Part shown: positions 5,409 to 38,835 of the stretch, piece after piece
How positions within the stretch are numbered: the stretch's first letter is position 1
Layout of the letters: each line of letters starts with the position of its first letter
NCBI GenBank assembly: GCA_020831625.1
Contig: JAFIGD010000016.1
Coordinates: 1 to 64,000 of the forward strand
Length of the DNA stretch: 64,000 nucleotides
Origin: Verrucomicrobiota bacterium
GTDB taxonomy: Bacteria > Verrucomicrobiota > Kiritimatiellia > SS1-B-03-39 > UBA6053
Direction: 5' to 3'
Program-made: the position numbers and the translations under genes
Notes under the pieces: generated by a model
Told to the model about the DNA's origin: nothing
Seen by the model: the letters and a program-made list of their open reading frames with translations, nothing else
Database searches by the model: none

Positions 5409-5776
5409 CGGGAATGCGCCAGATCCTTGGCGGTGCCGATGCGGGCGTGGTGGTCTTTGTTGTGGCAGTTGTCCCAGATGGAATCGCCGTCGGGGCCGAT
5501 CGCTTCGATGGCGTAGCGGATGCGGGTTCCGGCGGGGAAGGTGCCGAGATTGACGTGCCAGACATCCTGTTCGCCGAGCACGCAATTTTTCTCCATGGGG
5601 AGATGTTGCCAGGGTGATTCCCCTTCGGGATCAGTGGTAAAGAGAATGTTCGCGCCGGAGGCGGTTCCGACCGGCGTGGTGAAGGTGGTCACCCAGAATT
5701 CGGTCCACGGACGGCTTTCGCCGTCTGCCGGCCAATGGTAGGTGTTCTCAATCGTTAGAGGGTTTTCAGTTTGCAT
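5405..5776 (-). CDS. Small carbohydrate-binding-module protein, CBM25/53-like
   Basis: A 123-residue protein consisting essentially of one beta-sandwich module. Starch-binding CBM25/53-type features are TYHWPADGESRPW near the N-terminus, a central PWQHLPM, a WHVNLGTFPAGTRIRYAIE strand pair, and GDSIWDNCHNKDHHAR near the C-terminus (compare the family's D-x-WDNN-x-NY motif). There is no signal peptide, so the protein should stay in the cytosol, perhaps on glycogen. The ATG at 5774-5776 is preferred over one 14 residues earlier because homology begins there. No glycogen enzyme is adjacent. The module call rests on motif recall. Confidence 0.6.
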   Translation of the reverse strand: MQTENPLTIENTYHWPADGESRPWTEFWVTTFTTPVGTASGANILFTTDPEGESPWQHLPMEKNCVLGEQDVWHVNLGTFPAGTRIRYAIEAIGPDGDSIWDNCHNKDHHARIGTAKDLAHSR

Positions 5777-5909
5777 AATGAAACAAGCGCTTCCTTGTTT
5801 ATTTTTAAACCGTGACAAACCAGAGGCAACCTAAAAAACGATGCGATTTTTGTGAGTATAGGCGGGGGCTTCAAAAATGTACTGCGGATGAAGGCGGGGG
5901 AGGGGTCTT

Positions 5910-5996
5910 CAACGGATGGCTTGCGCCGGACAACGGATGTCTCTTTTCTCAATGCGCAACGTCACGCAGGTCTTAATCTTAATCCTAATCTTTATC
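5910..5996 (+). repeat. Composite intergenic repeat, copy A
   Basis: Contains the 20-base core GCTTGCGCCGGACAACGGAT at 5919-5938, then about 30 bases of spacer and a short run of CTTAAT-like hexamers (5971-5996). The same core and hexamer run recur at 28413-28585 and 32943-33103 in the same orientation. It lies between two minus-strand genes. Confidence 0.85.
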
Positions 5997-6011
5997 AATT
6001 TCGTGCAGGCT

Positions 6012-6214
6012 GAGCTTGCTCGGCCGACCGCACGCATCTCATATCCGGACCGAGCGGCCCTCTCTCCCCCGCGCATCGAGCTTGCTCGTTGCGCGGAAGC
6101 ATCTCATTCCGTTGGATAAGATGGGTTGCGCTCCACGAGCAAGCTCGAAGAGCGCTTTTTTTTGGGGGGGCGGTTCGTGGAATGAGATGATTGCGCCCTT
6201 GCCCGAGCAAGCTC
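6012..6214. repeat. Cluster of GAGCTTGCTCG palindromic elements
   Basis: Four copies of an 11-base near-palindrome: GAGCTTGCTCG at 6012-6022 and 6078-6088, and its reverse complement CGAGCAAGCTC at 6136-6146 and 6204-6214. The flanks also share GCATCTCAT and its inverse-like AATGAGATG. The paired inverted copies could fold into a large hairpin. No gene is supported between 5777 and 6285. The short reading frames here cross the repeats and look spurious. Confidence 0.75.
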
Positions 6215-6285
6215 GTAGGGCGCGGGAGAGCCCACGGATAGAAGGCCTCGGAGGGGTATGTCTCCGTGTGTGTATCGTAGCGCGG

Positions 6286-6789
6286 TTAAGGGGTGGCCGG
6301 TTTTGGTGGGGAGGCTGATTCAATCAGCTTTTCATTTGCTGTGTGCAGGGCTTCAAGAAGCTCGCGGGCTTTATCCGCATCATCGGCATCCAGCGCTTCG
6401 ATCACTGCTTGGAGGACAGAATTGGTTTCTTGAGCGGAACGAATTCGGGCGGCAGTCATTGGATCGCCGGCGGGGGCGATAGTATAGGCTCCGGGCGAGG
6501 GTTCATTTTCCAAAAGCACATAGCCAAAGGGAAACAACAGTCCGCGCAGGACGGTGGGCCAGGGCTGATTTTGTACATGCAGAGAGACGCGTTCTCTATA
6601 GACATTCTCCTCGGGCGAATAGTGGATGGACGTCCCGGTAGACGTCGACACAATGCGAATAAAATCCACCAACATGACCCTGTCCATGGAAATGGAAATT
6701 TCTTCCGACTTCTGAGGCTGTGCATCTGCGAAGGACATGATCGTCAGCAGGATACAGGATGTTATGAATACTGGAGTGCTGATTTTCAT
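6286..6789 (-). CDS. Secreted protein with a lone STN/N0 (secretin-TonB N-terminal-like) domain
   Basis: A 167-residue exported protein. Residues 1-23 form a signal peptide ending at SFADA. Residues about 32-105 resemble the STN/N0 domain of secretins and TonB receptors: ISISMDRVMLVDFIRIVS, then the GTSIHYSPEE and VSLHVQNQPWPTVLRGLL strands. The last 60 residues are a helical, charged linker with a Pro-rich end. No secretin channel or TonB barrel is attached, and there is no neighbouring secretin gene. It lies 39 bases downstream of the epimerase and could be the last gene of that unit. The role may be a periplasmic adaptor. Confidence 0.6.
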   Translation of the reverse strand: MKISTPVFITSCILLTIMSFADAQPQKSEEISISMDRVMLVDFIRIVSTSTGTSIHYSPEENVYRERVSLHVQNQPWPTVLRGLLFPFGYVLLENEPSPGAYTIAPAGDPMTAARIRSAQETNSVLQAVIEALDADDADKARELLEALHTANEKLIESASPPKPATP

Positions 6790-6828
6790 GAATCGTCCGG
6801 GTTTGGGGCGAGGAAATAAGATTGCTTG

Positions 6829-7839
6829 TTACACCTGATAATAGTCGCGGTACCAGTTCACAAAGCGGGCGACGCCGTCTTCGACGGTGACCCGGGGGGT
6901 GAAGCCGGTGTGGTCGGCGAGCTGGCTGACATCGGCCATGGTGTCGGGAACATCGCCGGGCTGGAGGGGTTTGAGGTCGAGTTCGGCTTTGCGTCCGAGG
7001 TTGGCTTCGAGGAGTTCGATGTAGCGGAGCAGGGGGGTGTTTTCGGCGCTGCCGATGTTGAAGATGCGGTAGGGCGCGTTGCTGGTGGCGGCGTCGGGAT
7101 TGGCGCTGTCCCACTTCGGGTTGGGTGCCGGGGGGCGGTCGAGGGTGCGGATGATGCCTTCGACGATGTCGTCGACATAGGTGAAGCTGCGCGAGTGTTT
7201 GCCGTGGTTGAAGACGGGAATGGGCTTTCCGGCGAGAATGTTTTTGGTGAAGAGGAAAAGGGCCATGTCCGGGCGGCCCCAGGGTCCGTAGACGGTGAAA
7301 AAGCGGAGGCCGGTGCAGGGGAAGCTGTAGAGGTGCGCGTAGCTGTGGGCCATCATTTCGTTGGCTTTTTTGCTGGCGGAGTAGAGGGTGAGGGGGTGTT
7401 CGGTGTGGTGATGCTCCGCGAAGGGCATGGTGGTGTTGGCGCCGTAGACGGAACTGGTGGAGGCGAAGACGAGGTGCTTCACGCCGTGGTGCCGACAGCC
7501 TTCGAGGATATGGAGGAAGCCGACGAGATTGCTTTGCACATAGACGTGCGGGTTTTCGGCGGCGTAGCGGACTCCGGCCTGGGCGGCGAGGTTGACGACC
7601 CCGTCGGGCTTGTGCGCGGCGAAGAGGTTCTCGACGGTTTCGCGGTCGGCGAGGTCGCCGTGTACGTGCGTGTATCCGGGGCAGGCGGTCAGCCGCCGAA
7701 GCCGGGCCTCTTTGAGGCTGACATCGTAGTAGTCGTTCATGCAGTCGATGCCGACCACTTTATTCCCGCGCTCAAGCAACTTGAGCGCGAGGGTGGAGCC
7801 GATGAAACCGGCGGAGCCGGTGACGAGAACCGTTTGCAT
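6829..7839 (-). CDS. NAD-dependent epimerase, UDP-glucuronate 4-epimerase type
   Basis: Extended short-chain dehydrogenase of 336 residues. The NAD-binding motif TGSAGFIG is at residues 7-14, the catalytic Ser region FASTSSVYG at about 126-133, and the Y-x3-K pair in YSASKKAN at Tyr153/Lys157. [16 protein letters not shown] and the [13 protein letters not shown] block match the UDP-glucuronate/UDP-galacturonate epimerase branch. It would supply UDP-galacturonate for surface polysaccharide. The ppiD-like stop is 7 bases upstream, so the two are probably co-transcribed. Confidence 0.9.
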
Positions 7840-28149: not shown

Positions 28150-28310
28150 ACCCCGCTCTGTTCGGATACCTGAGAGGATGACTCCTTCGGTGAACGCATG
28201 CGCTGCTCTCCAGAGATTGACGGCCCGCAGAGGTCCTTTTGCCTGAGAGCTTCCGGGGCAGGTTTCACCTTCGGCGGACGGCTCGGGGCCGCCTCTCTCC
28301 CTCGTGCGGA
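28150..28310 (-). promoter_or_regulatory. Tandem glycine riboswitch controlling gcvP-gcvT
   Basis: Two consecutive glycine aptamers read on the minus strand. Each has the CCGAAGG element (plus-strand 28268-28274 and 28184-28190) and the CTCTCAGG element (28242-28249 and 28169-28176) in the right order. The first aptamer is roughly 28310-28229 and the second 28218-28150, joined by a short linker. The second ends 32 bases before the gcvP start. Such riboswitches usually switch the glycine cleavage genes on when glycine is abundant. Confidence 0.93.
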
Positions 28311-28327
28311 AATTGTCAATAATTCTG

Positions 28328-28355: not shown

Positions 28356-28412
28356 GCGGGCTTCCAGGCGGATGCGGATGAAAAAGGGGACATCGGATCG
28401 ATCCAACGGATC

Positions 28413-28585
28413 GCTTGCGCCGGACAACGGATGAAGAAATGGGGGGGGGGCGCGAATATCTTTGCCGTCCCGCGAATAAAGTGGAGGAAAAAAGGGGTGG
28501 GGAGCCAGCGGATCGCTTGCGCCGGACAGCGGATGTTGTTTTTAAACTCTTAATCTTAATCTTAATCTTAATCTTAATCTTAATC
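28413..28585 (+). repeat. Composite intergenic repeat, copy B (two cores plus CTTAAT hexamers)
   Basis: The 20-base core GCTTGCGCCGGACAACGGAT is at 28413-28432, and a copy with one change is at 28515-28534. A run of ten or so G and a G-rich segment lie between. Six perfect CTTAAT hexamers follow the second core (28549-28585). The block fills the gap between the gcv promoter and the end of hrpB; no gene is supported here. Confidence 0.9.
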
Positions 28586-28593
28586 GCAACCGC

Positions 28594-31119
28594 TTACGGT
28601 TTTTCGGGCCAGTTGTGTTTGGGGTAGCGGCCTTTGAGGTCTTTGCGGACGAGTTGGTAAGCCCCGGTCCAGAAATTGGCGAGGTCTTCGGTGAGGGCGC
28701 AGGGGCGGTTGTTGGGGGCGAGAAACTCAATGCGGCAGGGCACGGCCCCGGCGGCAACGGTCGGCGCGGCGGTCATGCCGAAGAAGTCCTGCAGTTTCGA
28801 GGAGACGGTGGGGGGCGCGCCCTCCTCGTAGCGGACGCGGGCGCGGCGGCCGCCGGGGAGGTCGATGCGCTCGGGGGCGTGTTCGGCGACGAGCTGCCGC
28901 TGCATGGGGGAAAGCCAGTTTTCGATATGGCAGCGGACATCAAGGGATTTGACGTCTTTGCGGGTCCGGCAGGCGGAGAGCATGTGTTCCAGGAGGATGG
29001 CGCGGTCTTCGGGCTGGATGGGGGGGAGTTCCCAGTCGGGCCGCCAGGCGGCGAGGCAGTTGAGGCGGATGATCCAGCGGTCCACGCTTTCGTCCCAGCC
29101 GGGGAGGGGCACGGTCCCGGCGTTGACGGCCCCGGTGAGGAGCCGGCCCGCATCCTCGTCGCTCACCTCATGGCTGATGCGGCTTTCGAGGATGAGATCG
29201 CCGAACTGTGCGCGGGTTTCGCGGAGGAGGCGCTTGCTTTGTTCGTCGTAGCGGACCTCGTTGGTTTCGTGAAAATGTTCCGGCCAGAAGTCTTTGAGCC
29301 AGGTTTCTTCGATTTGTGTGACTCCGAGGAGAATGGGGACCTTGCTGCGCGCAAGGTCGCGGATTTCGGCGGCAACCAGGAGCCGGGCGTTTTGGCAAAC
29401 GCTGTCGGCATCGAGTTCCGCGACGCGGCCGTCGACGAGATCGCAGCGGCGGGTTTCGGGGGAACGGCGGAGGGCAAGGCGGTCGGCAAAAGCGACGGCG
29501 ATACATTTGCGCAGGGCGGTTTCGGGGCTGTCGCCCTGGTTATCCTCCGCGCGTTTGTCGCCGATGCGGGTGAACTGTCGGGCGGTCTGCACCGCCTGTC
29601 GGGCGGAAACGGCGTGGAGGCCGATGTCATCGCAGAATCCCCGGTCGAAGCGCTGGTGGGCGGCGGCGGTGACGGCGTGCACCTGCTGGATGAGGTCGGA
29701 GGTTCCCTCCCCGCCGAAGAGTTCCTGACGAAGCTGTCGCTGTTTGGATCCGACTTTATGGAGAAAAACGGGGCGTCCCTGAAGAATGCCGGCGATGAGG
29801 GCTGCGGGTTCGTGCACGCCGCGGGCCTCGGCCTCGAGCATGAGGCGGGCGATGCGGGGATGGGCGGGGTATTCAAGCATTTGCCTGCCCATCGGGGTGA
29901 TCGCCCCCTGTTTGCTCAGCGCTCCGAGATCGTGGAGGAAGGCTTCGGTGCGTCGGAGCACCGACTCCTCGGGAGGATCGGGGAGGGCGAGGGTGTTCCA
30001 GTCACTGACCCCCAGGGCGCGCAGGGTGAGGACGGCCTCGCTGAGATCGACGCGGTGAATTTCCGGGGTTTCGCGCGGGGGGCGGCGGGTGTGGCCGGCC
30101 TGCGTCCAGAGGCGGACGCATTGACCCGGCGCGGTGCGGCCGGCTCGTCCGGCGCGCTGATCGGCGGAGGCCTGGCTGATCGGCTCTATGTCGAGCTGAT
30201 CAACGCCCCGGGCGGGATCAAAGCGGGCGATGCGGGAGAGACCGCTGTCGATGACCGCGCGGACGCCGTCGATGGTGAGCGAGGTTTCGGCGATGTTGGT
30301 GGCGACGATAATGCGGCGGCGGGGTGAGGGGGCGAGGGCGCGGTCCTGATCCTCGGGGGACAGGTCGCCGTGGAGCGGGAGCAGGTCGGTGGTTTTGCCG
30401 ATGTCCCGGCGGCGGAGGGCTTCGAGGGTGCGGTCGATTTCGTAGCGGCCGGGCATGAAGATCAGCATGTCGCCGTCGGTGCGGGCGGCGAGGGACTGGG
30501 CGGCGTTGGCGGCGGAGTCCCAGATGTCGGTGCCGGAGGCGCGGGGATCGCGGTCGAGGTAATGGATGTCGACGGGGAAGGTGCGGCCTTCAGAGGACAG
30601 CAGGGCGGCGTCGGGGAGGAAGGCCTGGAGCGGATCGGTGTCGAGGGTGGCGGACATCAGGAGAATGCGCAGCTCCGGGCGTGAGGAGGCCTGAAGGCTC
30701 AGGGCCTGCGCGAGGCTGAGATCTCCGTAGAGATGGCGTTCGTGGAATTCGTCGAACACCAGACAGCCGATGTGGGGCAGTTCGGGTTCCCGCAGCCATT
30801 CGCGGAGCAAAATGCCTTCAGTGACATAGCGGATGCGGGTTTTGGAGGAGGCGCGGCGGTCGAGGCGGACCTGGTAGCCAATTTCATCGCCCAGGGCGGT
30901 CCCGCGCTCGTGGGCCACCCGGCGGGCCAGCATTTTCGCGGCGATGCGGCGTGGCTGCATGACCACAATCTGGCGGGATTCCGGGATCAGGCCGGCATCC
31001 AGAATCATTTGCGGCACCTGCGTGGATTTGCCGGATCCGGTGGGGGCCTGGAGGATGATCCGGGGGGTGGTTTGCAGGCGGGCGGTCAATTCGGATTGAA
31101 TGTCGTGAATGGGAAGCAT
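28594..31119 (-). CDS. hrpB: ATP-dependent RNA helicase HrpB
   Basis: DEAH-type helicase of 841 residues. Motif I is APTGSGKSTQVP (about 25-36), motif II is DEFH in VFDEFHERHLYGD, motif III is LMSATLD, motif VI is QRAGRAGRTAPG, and the HrpB-specific C-terminal domain ends in RYPKHNWPEKP. DEFH instead of DEAH is characteristic of HrpB. The ATG at 31119 is chosen because LPIHDIQSEL is the normal beginning; an ATG at 31137 is a close alternative. The stop codon sits 8 bases from the CTTAAT repeat. Confidence 0.93.
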   Translation of the reverse strand: MLPIHDIQSELTARLQTTPRIILQAPTGSGKSTQVPQMILDAGLIPESRQIVVMQPRRIAAKMLARRVAHERGTALGDEIGYQVRLDRRASSKTRIRYVTEGILLREWLREPELPHIGCLVFDEFHERHLYGDLSLAQALSLQASSRPELRILLMSATLDTDPLQAFLPDAALLSSEGRTFPVDIHYLDRDPRASGTDIWDSAANAAQSLAARTDGDMLIFMPGRYEIDRTLEALRRRDIGKTTDLLPLHGDLSPEDQDRALAPSPRRRIIVATNIAETSLTIDGVRAVIDSGLSRIARFDPARGVDQLDIEPISQASADQRAGRAGRTAPGQCVRLWTQAGHTRRPPRETPEIHRVDLSEAVLTLRALGVSDWNTLALPDPPEESVLRRTEAFLHDLGALSKQGAITPMGRQMLEYPAHPRIARLMLEAEARGVHEPAALIAGILQGRPVFLHKVGSKQRQLRQELFGGEGTSDLIQQVHAVTAAAHQRFDRGFCDDIGLHAVSARQAVQTARQFTRIGDKRAEDNQGDSPETALRKCIAVAFADRLALRRSPETRRCDLVDGRVAELDADSVCQNARLLVAAEIRDLARSKVPILLGVTQIEETWLKDFWPEHFHETNEVRYDEQSKRLLRETRAQFGDLILESRISHEVSDEDAGRLLTGAVNAGTVPLPGWDESVDRWIIRLNCLAAWRPDWELPPIQPEDRAILLEHMLSACRTRKDVKSLDVRCHIENWLSPMQRQLVAEHAPERIDLPGGRRARVRYEEGAPPTVSSKLQDFFGMTAAPTVAAGAVPCRIEFLAPNNRPCALTEDLANFWTGAYQLVRKDLKGRYPKHNWPEKP

Positions 31120-31239
31120 GGCTGTTTCTTCTATCATGAAATCATGAAAAGAGGGATTCCTTTCTCGACGCGGGGCGGTTTTTTTGTCAGGTGCGCTGGT
31201 GATTTTTCCGAACACAATGCTAACGAAAACCCAATCCAT

Positions 31240-32919
31240 ATGAAAATTCTGTTTACGGCGCTCGAGATTCTGGGCAGTCTGGGAATGTTTTTATTCGGCA
31301 TGAAAATTATGTCGGAATCGCTGCAAAGACTTTCGGGGGAACGCCTGCGGGGCATCATGCACGCGATGACCGGGAACCGGTTTTCGGGGCTGACGACGGG
31401 GTTTACGGTGACCTGCCTGGTGCAGAGTTCCTCCGCGTCCACGGTGATGATTGTGAGTTTTGTGAATGCGGGACTGCTGACGCTGTTTGGTGCGATTGGC
31501 ATGATTCTGGGGGCGAATCTGGGCACGACCACCACCTTTTGGATTATTTCGATTCTGGGCTTTAAATTCAGTATTTCCGCGATCGCACTGCCGATGATCG
31601 GGGTGGCGCTGCCGCTGATTTTCTCCCGCAAGCCGCGAACGAAGGACTGCGGGGAATTCATGATCGGGTTCGGTCTGTTGTTTTTGGGGCTGATGTTTTT
31701 GAAGGATTCGGTGCCGGATATCCAGAACAATCCCGAGGCGCTGGAGTTTATCACCAGTTTCACTGGAAAAGGGATCTTTTCGGTGATCAGTTTCATCCTT
31801 TTCGGGGCGATTTTGACGGTTCTGGTGCAATCCTCCTCGGTGGCGGGGGCGATCACGTTGACGATGGCGTACAAGGGATGGATTGATTACCCGAGCGCCT
31901 GCGCGATTATTTTGGGTGAAAACATCGGCACCACCATTACCGCGAACCTCGCCGCCATCGGCGGAAACGCCAACGCCAAGCGCGCGGCCCGGGCGCATTT
32001 GATTTTCAACCTGATCGGGGTGAGCTGGGCGATTGTTCTGTTCAATCCGCTTTCGGAGTTGATTCTGCTGATGGTGGGGCCCCGCGACACCGGGCCGAAT
32101 TCGCTGCCGATTTTGATGGCGGCGTTTCATACCACGTTTAACCTGATCAATATCGGGCTGGTGATCGGGTTTGTGAAGCAGCTGGAGCGGCTGGTGGTGC
32201 GTTTGGTGAAAGAACCGGAGGGGCCGGGGCTGCTGGCGCCGCAGAAGAGTCCGCACATGACCTATGAGTCGGCGATGATTCCGCACACTGGCGAGTTGAA
32301 CATCGCTGAAGCGGAACGGGATGTGGACCGGATGGGGTCCATCACCCGGGAATTGCTGATGCTGTTTACCGATCTGTTTGAGAATGGCGGCGAGGACATG
32401 CCCTCGTTGGTGCTCAAAGCGAAACAGTTGGAGCAGGAAAGTGATATCCTTTCCTTTGAAACCACCGCCTATCTGCTGCGGTGTTCCTCCTCGGGGCTGA
32501 GCGAGGCGACCCTGGGGCGGATCGCGTCACTGTTGCGCGTGGTCGCGGAACTGGAGGAGGTGTGCGACAGCGGATACCGTCTGGTGATGATGGCGGAGCG
32601 GAAACACCGTAAGAACCGGGTGCTGCCGCCGGAGACCCTGGGGCAGGTCCGCGAGTTCTCCAATATCATTCTCCAGTTCATGGATTTCTACAGCTCCCGT
32701 CTGCGCGGTCCGGTGAATGCGACCGATATGGAAACGGCCTATCAACTGGAGAAATTCATCGATTCGTTCCGCAAGCGGCTGCGCAAGGATTCGATGAACC
32801 GGATGCAGTTGAGCGGCGACGCGGTGAAGGCGGAAATGCTCTACGTGGATATTCTCAATAATATGGAGAGCATCGGAAACCATTCGATCAATATCCTTCA
32901 GGCGCTGCGGCACGCCTGA
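31240..32919 (+). CDS. Na/Pi cotransporter family protein (NptA/YjbB-like) with PhoU-like tail
   Basis: A 559-residue inner-membrane protein. The transport domain has the two inverted QSSS repeats, LVQSSSASTVMIVSF and LVQSSSVAGAITLTMAY, plus GANLGTTTTFWI and GENIGTTITANLAA, the standard SLC34-like pattern. From about residue 340 a helical PhoU-like domain follows (MGSITRELLMLFTDLF onward). It probably moves phosphate with sodium. The ATG at 31240-31242 gives the usual N-terminus. It diverges from hrpB with a 120-base gap. Confidence 0.92.
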   Translation: MKILFTALEILGSLGMFLFGMKIMSESLQRLSGERLRGIMHAMTGNRFSGLTTGFTVTCLVQSSSASTVMIVSFVNAGLLTLFGAIGMILGANLGTTTTFWIISILGFKFSISAIALPMIGVALPLIFSRKPRTKDCGEFMIGFGLLFLGLMFLKDSVPDIQNNPEALEFITSFTGKGIFSVISFILFGAILTVLVQSSSVAGAITLTMAYKGWIDYPSACAIILGENIGTTITANLAAIGGNANAKRAARAHLIFNLIGVSWAIVLFNPLSELILLMVGPRDTGPNSLPILMAAFHTTFNLINIGLVIGFVKQLERLVVRLVKEPEGPGLLAPQKSPHMTYESAMIPHTGELNIAEAERDVDRMGSITRELLMLFTDLFENGGEDMPSLVLKAKQLEQESDILSFETTAYLLRCSSSGLSEATLGRIASLLRVVAELEEVCDSGYRLVMMAERKHRKNRVLPPETLGQVREFSNIILQFMDFYSSRLRGPVNATDMETAYQLEKFIDSFRKRLRKDSMNRMQLSGDAVKAEMLYVDILNNMESIGNHSINILQALRHA

Positions 32920-32934
32920 TTCTGAGGGGAATCC

Positions 32935-33103
32935 AACGGATGGCTTGCGCCGGACAACGGATGAAGACAGGGAGACCACGGAATGAAGACCACGGATGAA
33001 TACGGGGAAAGAACCACAGATAGCCTTGCCGGACCACGGATGTCCGTTTCTTAATCTTAATCGTAATCTTAATCTTAATCTTAATCTTAATCTTAATCGT
33101 AAT
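32935..33103 (+). repeat. Composite intergenic repeat, copy C
   Basis: The core GCTTGCGCCGGACAACGGAT is at 32943-32962. Several CCACGGATG-like words follow, then a degenerate second core (GCCTTGCCGGACCACGGAT, 33023-33041). Nine hexamers run from 33050 to 33103, seven CTTAAT and two CGTAAT. The layout matches copy B: core, spacer, second core, hexamers. It fills the gap after the Na/Pi gene. Confidence 0.9.
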
Positions 33104-33149
33104 CGCTTCCGATTAAAAGAGCTTTACGCAGGCTGTTTTCAGGGCGGGC

Positions 33150-33958: not shown

Positions 33959-35567
33959 GCTTTTCGTTTTTTTGGGAATTTTGAGTGCGCTGGCGGCCGG
34001 CCCGGTGTCGGCGCGGACGCGGGTGGCCCAGGGAAACCGCGAGGGGATTCTGCATTTGGGCAACGGCAGTGAGCTGGAGAGTCTGGATCCGCATCTCACC
34101 ACCGGGGTCCCGGAATACAATGTGATCAGTGCGTTGCTGGAGGGGTTGATCCGCGAGGATGCGGAGACGCTGGAGCCGGTGCCGGGCGTGGCGGAACGCT
34201 GGACGGTTTCGGAGGACGGGCGGGTCTACCGCTTTTATCTGCGGGAAAACGCCCGCTGGTCCAACGGCGATCCCGTGACCGCGGATGATTTCGTCTACAG
34301 TTTCCGCCGGATTCTTTCGCCCCGGCTGGGTGCGCCGTATGCCTATATGCTGCACGGGATCGAAAATGCGCGGGCCTACAACGCCGGGGAGCTGGAGGAT
34401 GTGAACGCGGTGGGGGTGAAGGCGGAGGACGCGCGCACGCTGGTGGTGACGCTGGAGAAACCGGCCCCGTATTTCATCCGCATGCTGAATCATTATTCAT
34501 TTTATCCGGTTCATCCCCCCACCGTCGAGGCGCACGGCGGGGCGCATGACCGCACCAACCGCTGGGCGCGGCCGGAGCACTATGTCGGCAACGGACCGTT
34601 CACGCTGACATCCTGGCGGCTGAATCAGTCGCTGAGGGTTGATAAAAATCCGCGTTATTGGAACGCGGACGCGGTGCGCCTGAACGGGATGGTTTTTTAT
34701 CCGGTGGAGGATCAGCAGGCGGAGGAGCGGATGTTCCGGAGCGGGGGGCTGCACAAAACCGACGGGGTGCCGCTTGCCCGGGTCGAACGCTACCGCCGCA
34801 CAAACGATCCGGCCTTTGTTTCGCATCCGTATCTGACCACCTATTATTACCTGATCAACACCACCCGGGAGCCGTTTGACGATGTCCGGGTGCGCCGGGC
34901 GCTGGCTCTGGCCCTGAACCGGGAGGCGATCACTGAACGGGTGCTGCGGGCGGGAGAGGCTCCGGCGCTGTGGTTCACTCCCCGGGGCACAGGGGGCTTT
35001 GAGCCCTCGCAGGCGCTGGGGGAGGATGTCGCCGAGGCCCGGCGGCTGCTGGCCGAGGCGGGTTTCCCGGAAGGGCGGGGCTTCCCGCGCTTCACGCTTT
35101 TGTACAACACCCGCGAGTCCCATCGGCTGATTGCCCAGGTGGTGCAACAGATGTGGCGGGAGAATCTGGGCATTGAATGCGAACTGGTGAATCAGGAATG
35201 GCAGGTCTACATGGTCTCGCGGCGCAATTTGGAGTTTGATATTGCCCGCGCCGGCTGGGCGGGGGATTACGCGGATCCGCACAATTTTCTGGATCTGCAC
35301 CTGAGCACCAGCGGGAACAATCACACCGGCTGGTTCGATCCGGAATACGACGATCTGATTCACCGGGCCTCGGGCCTGCGGGACACGGCAGAACGTTTCG
35401 CGCTGTACGATCAGGCCGAAGCCGTTCTGCTCCGCGATATGCCGTTGATTCCTCTGTATTGGTACACCCGCACCTATTTGTTGCATCCCTCGGTCCGCGG
35501 CCTGACGCCCAATCCGCTGGCCCGGCGCGATTACACCGCGATATGGCTTGAGGGGAGTGACGAATGA
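33951..35567 (+). CDS. Oligopeptide ABC transporter substrate-binding protein, OppA-like (copy 1)
   Basis: A 538-residue periplasmic solute-binding protein of family 5 (SBP_bac_5). The signal peptide ends at PVSA and lacks a lipobox. Landmarks include ESLDPHLTTG, VYRFYLRENARWSNGDPVTA, a central YVGNGPFTLTSWR, and RRALALALNREAI. AAGGAG lies 11 bases before the ATG at 33951. The last codons (SDE, stop) lie inside the heptamer array at 35551-35711. It is paralogous to the next gene. No opp permease or ATPase genes are adjacent. Confidence 0.92.
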   Translation: MCKLFVFLGILSALAAGPVSARTRVAQGNREGILHLGNGSELESLDPHLTTGVPEYNVISALLEGLIREDAETLEPVPGVAERWTVSEDGRVYRFYLRENARWSNGDPVTADDFVYSFRRILSPRLGAPYAYMLHGIENARAYNAGELEDVNAVGVKAEDARTLVVTLEKPAPYFIRMLNHYSFYPVHPPTVEAHGGAHDRTNRWARPEHYVGNGPFTLTSWRLNQSLRVDKNPRYWNADAVRLNGMVFYPVEDQQAEERMFRSGGLHKTDGVPLARVERYRRTNDPAFVSHPYLTTYYYLINTTREPFDDVRVRRALALALNREAITERVLRAGEAPALWFTPRGTGGFEPSQALGEDVAEARRLLAEAGFPEGRGFPRFTLLYNTRESHRLIAQVVQQMWRENLGIECELVNQEWQVYMVSRRNLEFDIARAGWAGDYADPHNFLDLHLSTSGNNHTGWFDPEYDDLIHRASGLRDTAERFALYDQAEAVLLRDMPLIPLYWYTRTYLLHPSVRGLTPNPLARRDYTAIWLEGSDE

Positions 35568-35711
35568 CGAATGTGGAGTGACGAATGACGAATGGGGAGT
35601 GACGAATGGGGAGTGACGAGTGACGAATGACGAATGAGGAATGGGGAGTGACGAGTGACGAGTGACGAATGACGAGTGACGAGTGACGAATGACGAATGA
35701 CGAATGGGGAG
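35551..35711. repeat. Heptamer tandem array (TGACGAR family), copy 2
   Basis: Twenty-three in-phase 7-base units (161 bases), mostly TGACGAA or TGACGAG, with TGGGGAG, TGAGGAA and TGTGGAG variants. It begins inside the oligopeptide-binding gene and supplies its TGA stop. Read on the minus strand it gives an open, meaningless heptapeptide repeat (LVTRHSS). No spacers of other sequence occur, so it is not a CRISPR array. The rest of the gap to 35786 holds nothing recognisable. Confidence 0.95.
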
Positions 35712-37409: not shown

Positions 37410-37535
37410 CTGTCTGCTGCAAATCTTACTGCCTTTCCGGCGCACAAGTCCTCATCGTAATCCTGACGCGGATTTCATCCACAACCCTATTTCGTGGAAC
37501 TCAATGTGACAGGAGACGCAGCGTCATCTCCCCGG

Positions 37536-37678
37536 ATCGCGACGGCTTTGGGGCAGGTGGAAGGGAAGACCACGGATGCAGACCCCGGATCGTGCCGGCT
37601 TTGGGACAGAGGGAAGGGAAGACCCCGGATGCAGACCCCGGATCGTGCCGGCTTTGGGGCAGGGGGGCGGGAAGATTA
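37536..37678. repeat. 53-base tandem repeat upstream of mreB
   Basis: Two full 53-base units (37536-37588 and 37589-37641) and a partial third (37642 to about 37678). Each unit begins ATCG, contains CGGCTTTGGG and ends in GATGCAGACCCCGG. It contains CACGGATG words similar to the composite repeats. The gap 37410-37809 has no supported gene. Confidence 0.9.

Positions 37679-37749: not shown

Positions 37750-38835
<1,086 letters not shown>

Follow-up and report, generated by a model that had tools for sequence, protein, structure and literature searches.

Results

A composite repeat occurs at three intergenic sites of the window

The window, i.e. the whole 64-kb stretch of DNA analysed here, contains three sites (copies A, B and C) at which a 20-base core is followed by an array of CTTAAT-type hexamers. 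Copy A separates cinA from a 167-aa ORF, and copy C separates a Na/Pi-cotransporter gene from a 257-aa ORF; neither ORF has a Pfam match. Copy B is flanked by an hrpB-like gene (28594-31239, minus strand) and by gcvP, which carries a tandem glycine riboswitch. The features of the three copies are as follows.

5919-5938, plus strand: core of copy A, forming the second half of a AACGGATG...AACGGATG word pair that begins at 5911
5972-5989, plus strand: short hexamer array of copy A, CTTAAT-CTTAAT-CCTAAT
5999-6252, plus strand: 254-bp long imperfect hairpin repeat of copy A with four CGAGCAAGCTCG-type palindromes, found about 30 times in the genome, in full or in part
28413-28432, plus strand: first core of copy B
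28452-28477, plus strand: word pair of copy B, CGCGAAT type (CGCGAAT-ATCTTTGCCGTCC-CGCGAAT)
28515-28534, plus strand: second core of copy B, one mismatch, directly before the hexamers
28549-28584, plus strand: six CTTAAT hexamers of copy B; the hrpB-like stop codon is some 9 bp away
32922-33147, plus strand: entire copy C, absent from the orthologous site of the congener G002 (net difference about 211 bp)
32943-32962, plus strand: core of copy C
33014-33041, plus strand: word pair of copy C, CCACAGAT-AGCCTTGCCGGA-CCACGGAT, directly before the hexamers and differing from the core by more than 3 mismatches
33050-33103, plus strand: nine hexamers of copy C, CTTAAT with two CGTAAT

Scanning the window identified the exact 20-mer at 5919-5938, 28413-28432 and 32943-32962 and a one-mismatch version at 28515-28534, all on the plus strand. 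These four matches (up to 3 mismatches) compare with 0.04 expected, and none of 100 shuffled sequences contained four or more. The hexamers at 5972-5989, 28549-28584 and 33050-33103 are all on the plus strand and 3' of a core, so that the order and strand proposed for the three sites in the preliminary description were borne out. The same description gave copies B and C two cores each, with the second immediately preceding the hexamers. This holds for copy B, where the second core has one mismatch, and does not hold for copy C, where the element preceding the hexamers is a related word pair more than 3 mismatches away from the core. With one mismatch allowed, CTTAATCTTAAT was found 15 times, where 0.05 were expected, and CCACGGATG by itself was barely above chance, with 4 occurrences against 0.97 expected and 2 of 100 shuffles reaching 4. 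A resemblance to the 53-base repeat near mreB, noted earlier, was confirmed; this repeat (2.8 copies, 37530-37675, upstream of mreB at 37810-38835) does contain CCACGGATG.

At the Rfam gathering threshold, the only matches across the whole window were the two glycine riboswitch aptamers. The tandem riboswitch (28151-28313, minus strand) precedes gcvP and adjoins copy B. None of the window copies is inserted in a 23S rRNA gene.

Copy C is missing at the orthologous site of a congener

Comparison with the congener G002 revealed that the two genes on either side of copy C are joined there by a short spacer, with flanks about 85% identical to those in the window. The limits of the missing stretch (32922-33147) are accurate to about 10 bp. 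At least one window copy is thus polymorphic between congeners. The preliminary description had suggested a search for associated ends or a target duplication; aligning copy C with the empty G002 site revealed neither a target duplication nor terminal repeats, including the terminal inverted repeats typical of MITEs, and copy C has no inverted hexamer partner. Copy C was also considered as a structured RNA, and this was rejected on account of a fold that is worse than that of shuffled sequences (z +1.94).

Copy A did not qualify as a second empty site. In G002 the interval 5753-6838, which includes copy A, is missing, and the absence also takes out about 600 bp holding an ORF; it could therefore be a deletion in G002, and gain and loss are indistinguishable at this site. 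At the place of copy B, the G002 contig breaks; G002 carries related words upstream of gcvP, and copy B may therefore be old. G001 and G003 have no synteny downstream of hrpB. The nearest named relatives of the hrpB-like gene are in Kiritimatiellaeota/Verrucomicrobia genomes, which suggests that this uncultured bacterium belongs to Kiritimatiellota; the four of nine such loci compared (L133-L136) have no downstream synteny with the window. A second gcvP 5' end with its riboswitch is present elsewhere in the genome (L241, G000:C76:129098-129519); it is 98% identical and stops at window position 28364, at the start of the copy B region, and is due either to duplication or to the assembly.

Core and hexamers are separate modules joined at a recurrent junction

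A genome-wide scan for core and hexamers, proposed in the preliminary description, was carried out on the 4.89-Mb genome (111 contigs) and gave a clear signal. The core (up to 3 mismatches) was found 43 times, 23 of them exact, against a single match for the reversed-pattern control. Hexamer triplets (up to 1 mismatch) were found 436 times, against 0 for the control. Among the 146 genomes searched, own genome included, the core (up to 2 mismatches) was detected in 9 and the hexamer triplet without mismatch in 21, indicating that the hexamers are spread across families and the core is nearly confined to the genus. In G003 (C164, 8809-8963), a core variant forms a tandem of four copies with 45-bp spacing.

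From 50 loci of the genome, we assembled 59 distinct hexamer arrays with 3 or more units, using array starts that fit one pattern. The arrays consist of head-to-tail, intergenic units within the 5-11 nt range of SSR/STRR sequences; 45 of the 59 are outside ATG-started ORFs of at least 150 aa, a weak test given the many spurious ORFs of this genome. Overall, the length of hexamer arrays ranged from 2 to 16 units. CTTAAT accounted for 223 units, CGTAAT for 85, CCTAAT for 30 and CATAAT for 7, and 22 units varied elsewhere, so that second-position variants made up 122 of the 144 variant units (54 arrays).

A junction of the form CGGATG-TTKYTT-[CTTAAT]n recurred among the arrays. The end of a word was located within about 20 nt upstream of 19 of the 59 arrays, as compared with 3.3% of random positions at the same loci, and the 254-bp repeat started within 60 bp after 9 of them; seven arrays had both. 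A core or related pair was present up to 200 bp upstream in 10 arrays, an inverted hexamer partner up to 60 bp downstream in 16, and a GAGCAAGCTC-type palindrome up to 150 bp downstream in 12. The paired words were identical in 33 of 59 cases against 15 expected (maximum of 24 in 1000 shuffles). The 254-bp repeat folds strongly (z -3.67), and its 32 distinct genome matches, overlapping and partial ones included, correspond to about 30 copies, found almost only in this genome.

About half of the 30 core loci examined had no hexamers within 200 bp. The proposal that core and hexamers form one spreading element is therefore only partly right. The conserved order and strand, the recurrent junction and the absence of copy C in the congener support it; its parts also occur alone, and this independent occurrence, which was to count against the proposal, was not accompanied by a loss of co-orientation. 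No partner transposase, also suggested earlier, could be linked to the repeats. Collectively, a kept junction and order together with parts that also stand alone describe a modular mosaic rather than one fixed element: core and hexamers are separate modules that often move or build up jointly and meet at an oriented junction that recurs.

Four-helix-bundle genes are bounded by matched inverted word arrays

Whether four-helix-bundle genes sit among short-word repeats was tested with the PF05635/TIGR02436 family, the 23S rRNA intervening-sequence protein family (23S_rRNA_IVP). TIGR02436 had matches in 50 of the 58 genomes searched, own genome included, and in none of 14 control genomes; the own genome had 11 hits, all on contigs other than that of the window. 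Flanks of 200 bp on each side were compared at 75 loci (70 of the 71 best-ranked matches in relatives and the 5 full-length own copies; G014:C62, at a contig edge, and the 6 partial own hits were left out), using an inverted-repeat score for matched and mismatched pairs of flanks.

The median score was 23 for matched flanks and 11 for mismatched ones, and 63 of the 75 loci exceeded the 95th percentile of mismatched pairs, as compared with 0 of 38 ordinary window genes. The own downstream flank ranked first of 75 at 40 loci and among the top three at 60. The observed mean of 24.1 was well above the highest value in 10,000 permutations (15.6), and inverted matching exceeded direct matching at 63 of 75 loci. 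Array words were 6-8 nt long, with a best period of mostly 7, followed by 8; they vary between cassettes yet match at both ends of each. Twelve loci remained under the 95th percentile, two of which (L064 and L200) look array-free. At the RNA level the pairing was weaker, with 26 of 75 loci below the 5th percentile.

Two of the five full-length own copies (L063 and L065) are bounded by the window-type hexamer word, so that the window hexamers are the terminal word of these cassettes. Another own copy, L061, is bounded by a CGAATGA heptamer. Inverted ACCACTGATG-type decamers, akin to the CCACGGATG words, bound the GxxExxY genes L073 and L075; this tight inverted pattern was not seen at the GxxExxY loci L072 and L074. 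The G035/G020 pair was considered a potential empty site of a chromosomal cassette and rejected, the two genomes carrying different words at one place. In G092, compact inverted hexamer arrays (L172 and L173) are nested in a larger element that ends in TAAGTTAAG/CTTAACTTA and is present in three copies, in both orientations.

Three plasmid cassettes match clean empty sites in relatives

A tblastn search with one four-helix-bundle protein (PF05635, E 5.7e-37; solved relatives 2gsc and 2rld) retrieved 32 plasmid records, 16 of which were compared. Median scores were 24.5 for matched flanks and 11 otherwise, and the own flank ranked first in 11 of 16; 9 of 16 loci exceeded a 95th percentile that is inflated by shared words. 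Three cassettes, all in named cyanobacterial plasmids, had clean empty sites. Trichormus variabilis plasmid C differs from Nostoc linckia NIES-25 by a 428 bp insertion with GTAAT on both sides, a 5-bp target duplication. Nostoc C052 pC052_D differs from pC052_B by 417 bp, and Nostoc ATCC 53789 pNsp_c differs from pC052_B by 506 bp, with ATG on both sides. In Trichormus and pC052_D, no more than about 10 bp separate the word arrays from the insertion ends; in pNsp_c, the right array is about 40 bp inside the insertion end.

A Scytonema plasmid carries the same insertion as Trichormus with a left array two heptamers shorter, the only cassette for which a difference in unit number was seen at one site. 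A decayed cassette with a one-sided array was found in Nostoc pC052_E, which kept the left array and a gene fragment and lost the right end. The cassettes L331, L328 and L335 (plasmids of PCC 7003, Aulosira and Nostoc edaphicum) are also lacking in a relative; they were not counted as clean empty sites because the exact junction is blurred. The PCC 7003 cassette sits between cas10 and cmr3. Four-helix-bundle genes are found inside CRISPR operons (cas10/cmr3, cas6/cas4) at three loci, L331, L333 and L334, on plasmids of Picosynechococcus PCC 7003, Anabaena 90 and Pseudanabaena galeata; at least the one in PCC 7003 is absent from PCC 7002.

Discussion

The window copies as possible derivatives of cassettes

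The modules of the mosaic are paired words, of which the core is one type, a (CNTAAT)n array and, at copy A only, the 254-bp hairpin. We tentatively favour, as something close to an even call, the reading that the window copies are cargo-less mosaics of these repeat modules whose hexamers are of the kind found at cassette ends, and that they derive from cassettes or were moved by them. The sharing of the hexamer word with L063 and L065 would fit such a descent or movement, and the copies may be leftovers of four-helix-bundle cassettes. By analogy, the one-sided state of pC052_E would be that expected of the window copies if they are cassette derivatives. Against a cassette origin, the hexamer word bounds only 2 of 5 full-length own loci and forms at least 59 arrays. 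Neither a four-helix-bundle gene nor a remnant of one was found inside copies A-C or next to them, their hexamers are in one orientation only, with no matched inverted arrays at both ends, and no core-type word was found to bound any four-helix-bundle gene.

Under the cassette-derivative reading, cassettes would insert between genes, perhaps through the four-helix-bundle protein and a host partner, and their ends would be recognised as self-complementary arrays and not by a fixed sequence. The gene would then be lost by deletion with the arrays staying behind; alternatively, array-only forms could be moved in trans. Slippage would alter the number of units, and new units would accrete beside old ones at tolerant intergenic sites, which could produce the oriented order of word, hexamers and hairpin. 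The four-helix-bundle family is homologous to Avd, the accessory protein of diversity-generating retroelements, according to the available text of PMC10053308, and our tblastn query has a weak bAvd match. An RNA or cDNA step is imaginable from this homology.

The idea that four-helix-bundle cassettes in general are widespread minimal mobile elements without a recognised transposase, with ends made of self-matching arrays of any short word, and that their decay or trans-mobilisation seeds intergenic repeats including the window hexamers, seems to us possible rather than probable.

Other explanations

Plain microsatellites and low-complexity intergenic DNA are one rival explanation: polymerase slippage would generate the hexamers and segmental duplication would spread the words, with nothing mobile involved. 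Array length is indeed free to vary (2 to 16 units), and the available text of PMC4692102 attributes the heptamers of Xanthomonas and Nostoc to slippage, generally without mobile elements. The recurrent oriented junction, the variation specific to position 2 of the hexamer, the empty site of copy C, the matched inverted words at cassette ends and the exact plasmid insertions argue against it; we consider this explanation unlikely. A regulatory role, transcriptional or post-transcriptional, has been proposed for the TAACTGA heptamers of Beggiatoaceae, and the window copies are likewise intergenic and beside gene ends, copy B having hrpB on one side and the tandem gcvP glycine riboswitch on the other. 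However, the genes beside copies A-C are unrelated, the copy C sequence is missing in a congener with 85% identical flanks, and this sequence folds worse than shuffles, which makes a regulatory sequence very improbable.

In a further scenario, a transposase encoded in the genome (RAYT/Y1_Tnp or other) would move the repeats as a family of the REP/BIME or MITE type, with word pairs and hexamers hitch-hiking on the 254-bp hairpin. The strong fold of this repeat, its roughly 30 copies and its near restriction to this genome fit such a family, and the genome has 10 PF01797 (Y1_Tnp/RAYT) hits, 3 of them strong. Nevertheless, the palindrome of the 254-bp repeat was present at 0 of the 10 PF01797 loci and hexamers at a single one, more than 1 kb from the hit; copies B and C have no hairpin, nor do 50 of the 59 arrays. 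A RAYT driver was rejected, none of the 10 loci having a RAYT gene bounded by the repeat, and the scenario as a whole appears improbable.

Relation to known repeats and elements

Short-word arrays, fixed variable positions, convergent pairs and rRNA intervening sequences (IVS) that carry a gene of the four-helix-bundle family are already known. STRR sequences of cyanobacteria are tandem intergenic heptamers; the window hexamers are also tandem and intergenic, and differ in word and host. The GGGAATC-type heptamers of Xanthomonas and Nostoc, as described in the available text of PMC4692102, are intergenic with fixed variable positions (GGGANTN) and often form convergent inverted pairs (70 in Xcc and 75 in Xac), all of which resembles the present arrays; that text links them to no gene cassette and generally to no mobile element. 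The word of the window is instead six bases long, and its arrays are linked to a hairpin repeat and to paired words. TAACTGA direct repeats of Beggiatoaceae, Cyanobacteria and Bacteroidetes, for which the accessible part of PMC4679880 considers a mobile origin, are likewise short-word intergenic arrays with a patchy distribution across phyla, whereas they are mostly directly upstream of start codons and, in that part, form no composite with a core or hairpin.

The 23S rRNA IVS with an S23 protein, such as that of Coxiella (428 nt with a 28-bp terminal stem, from the available text of PMC4990558), resembles the cassettes in its small size, its inverted ends and the family of the gene it encloses. 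In contrast to the IVS, the cassettes described here are between protein genes and end in tandem word arrays, and the window copies are geneless. REP/BIME-RAYT systems (PMC3733652) share modular intergenic palindromes and mosaics with the present repeats, which differ in that no RAYT gene is bounded by the modules and the hexamers are not palindromic. No report linking matched word arrays to free-standing four-helix-bundle genes was found in the literature searched, in which subscription papers and bioRxiv are poorly covered.

Intergenic repeats of short words have been on record for decades, and their origin is not agreed. A link to a mobile gene cassette, if true, would give them both a source and a test, and scattered "four helix bundle protein" genes, even those in CRISPR operons, would be insertions and not operon members.

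The window also contains two heptamer arrays of the word family that bounds the four-helix-bundle gene L061: about 21 TGACGAA heptamers in an intergenic region at 35555-35706, and ten CGAGTGA heptamers at 20-90.
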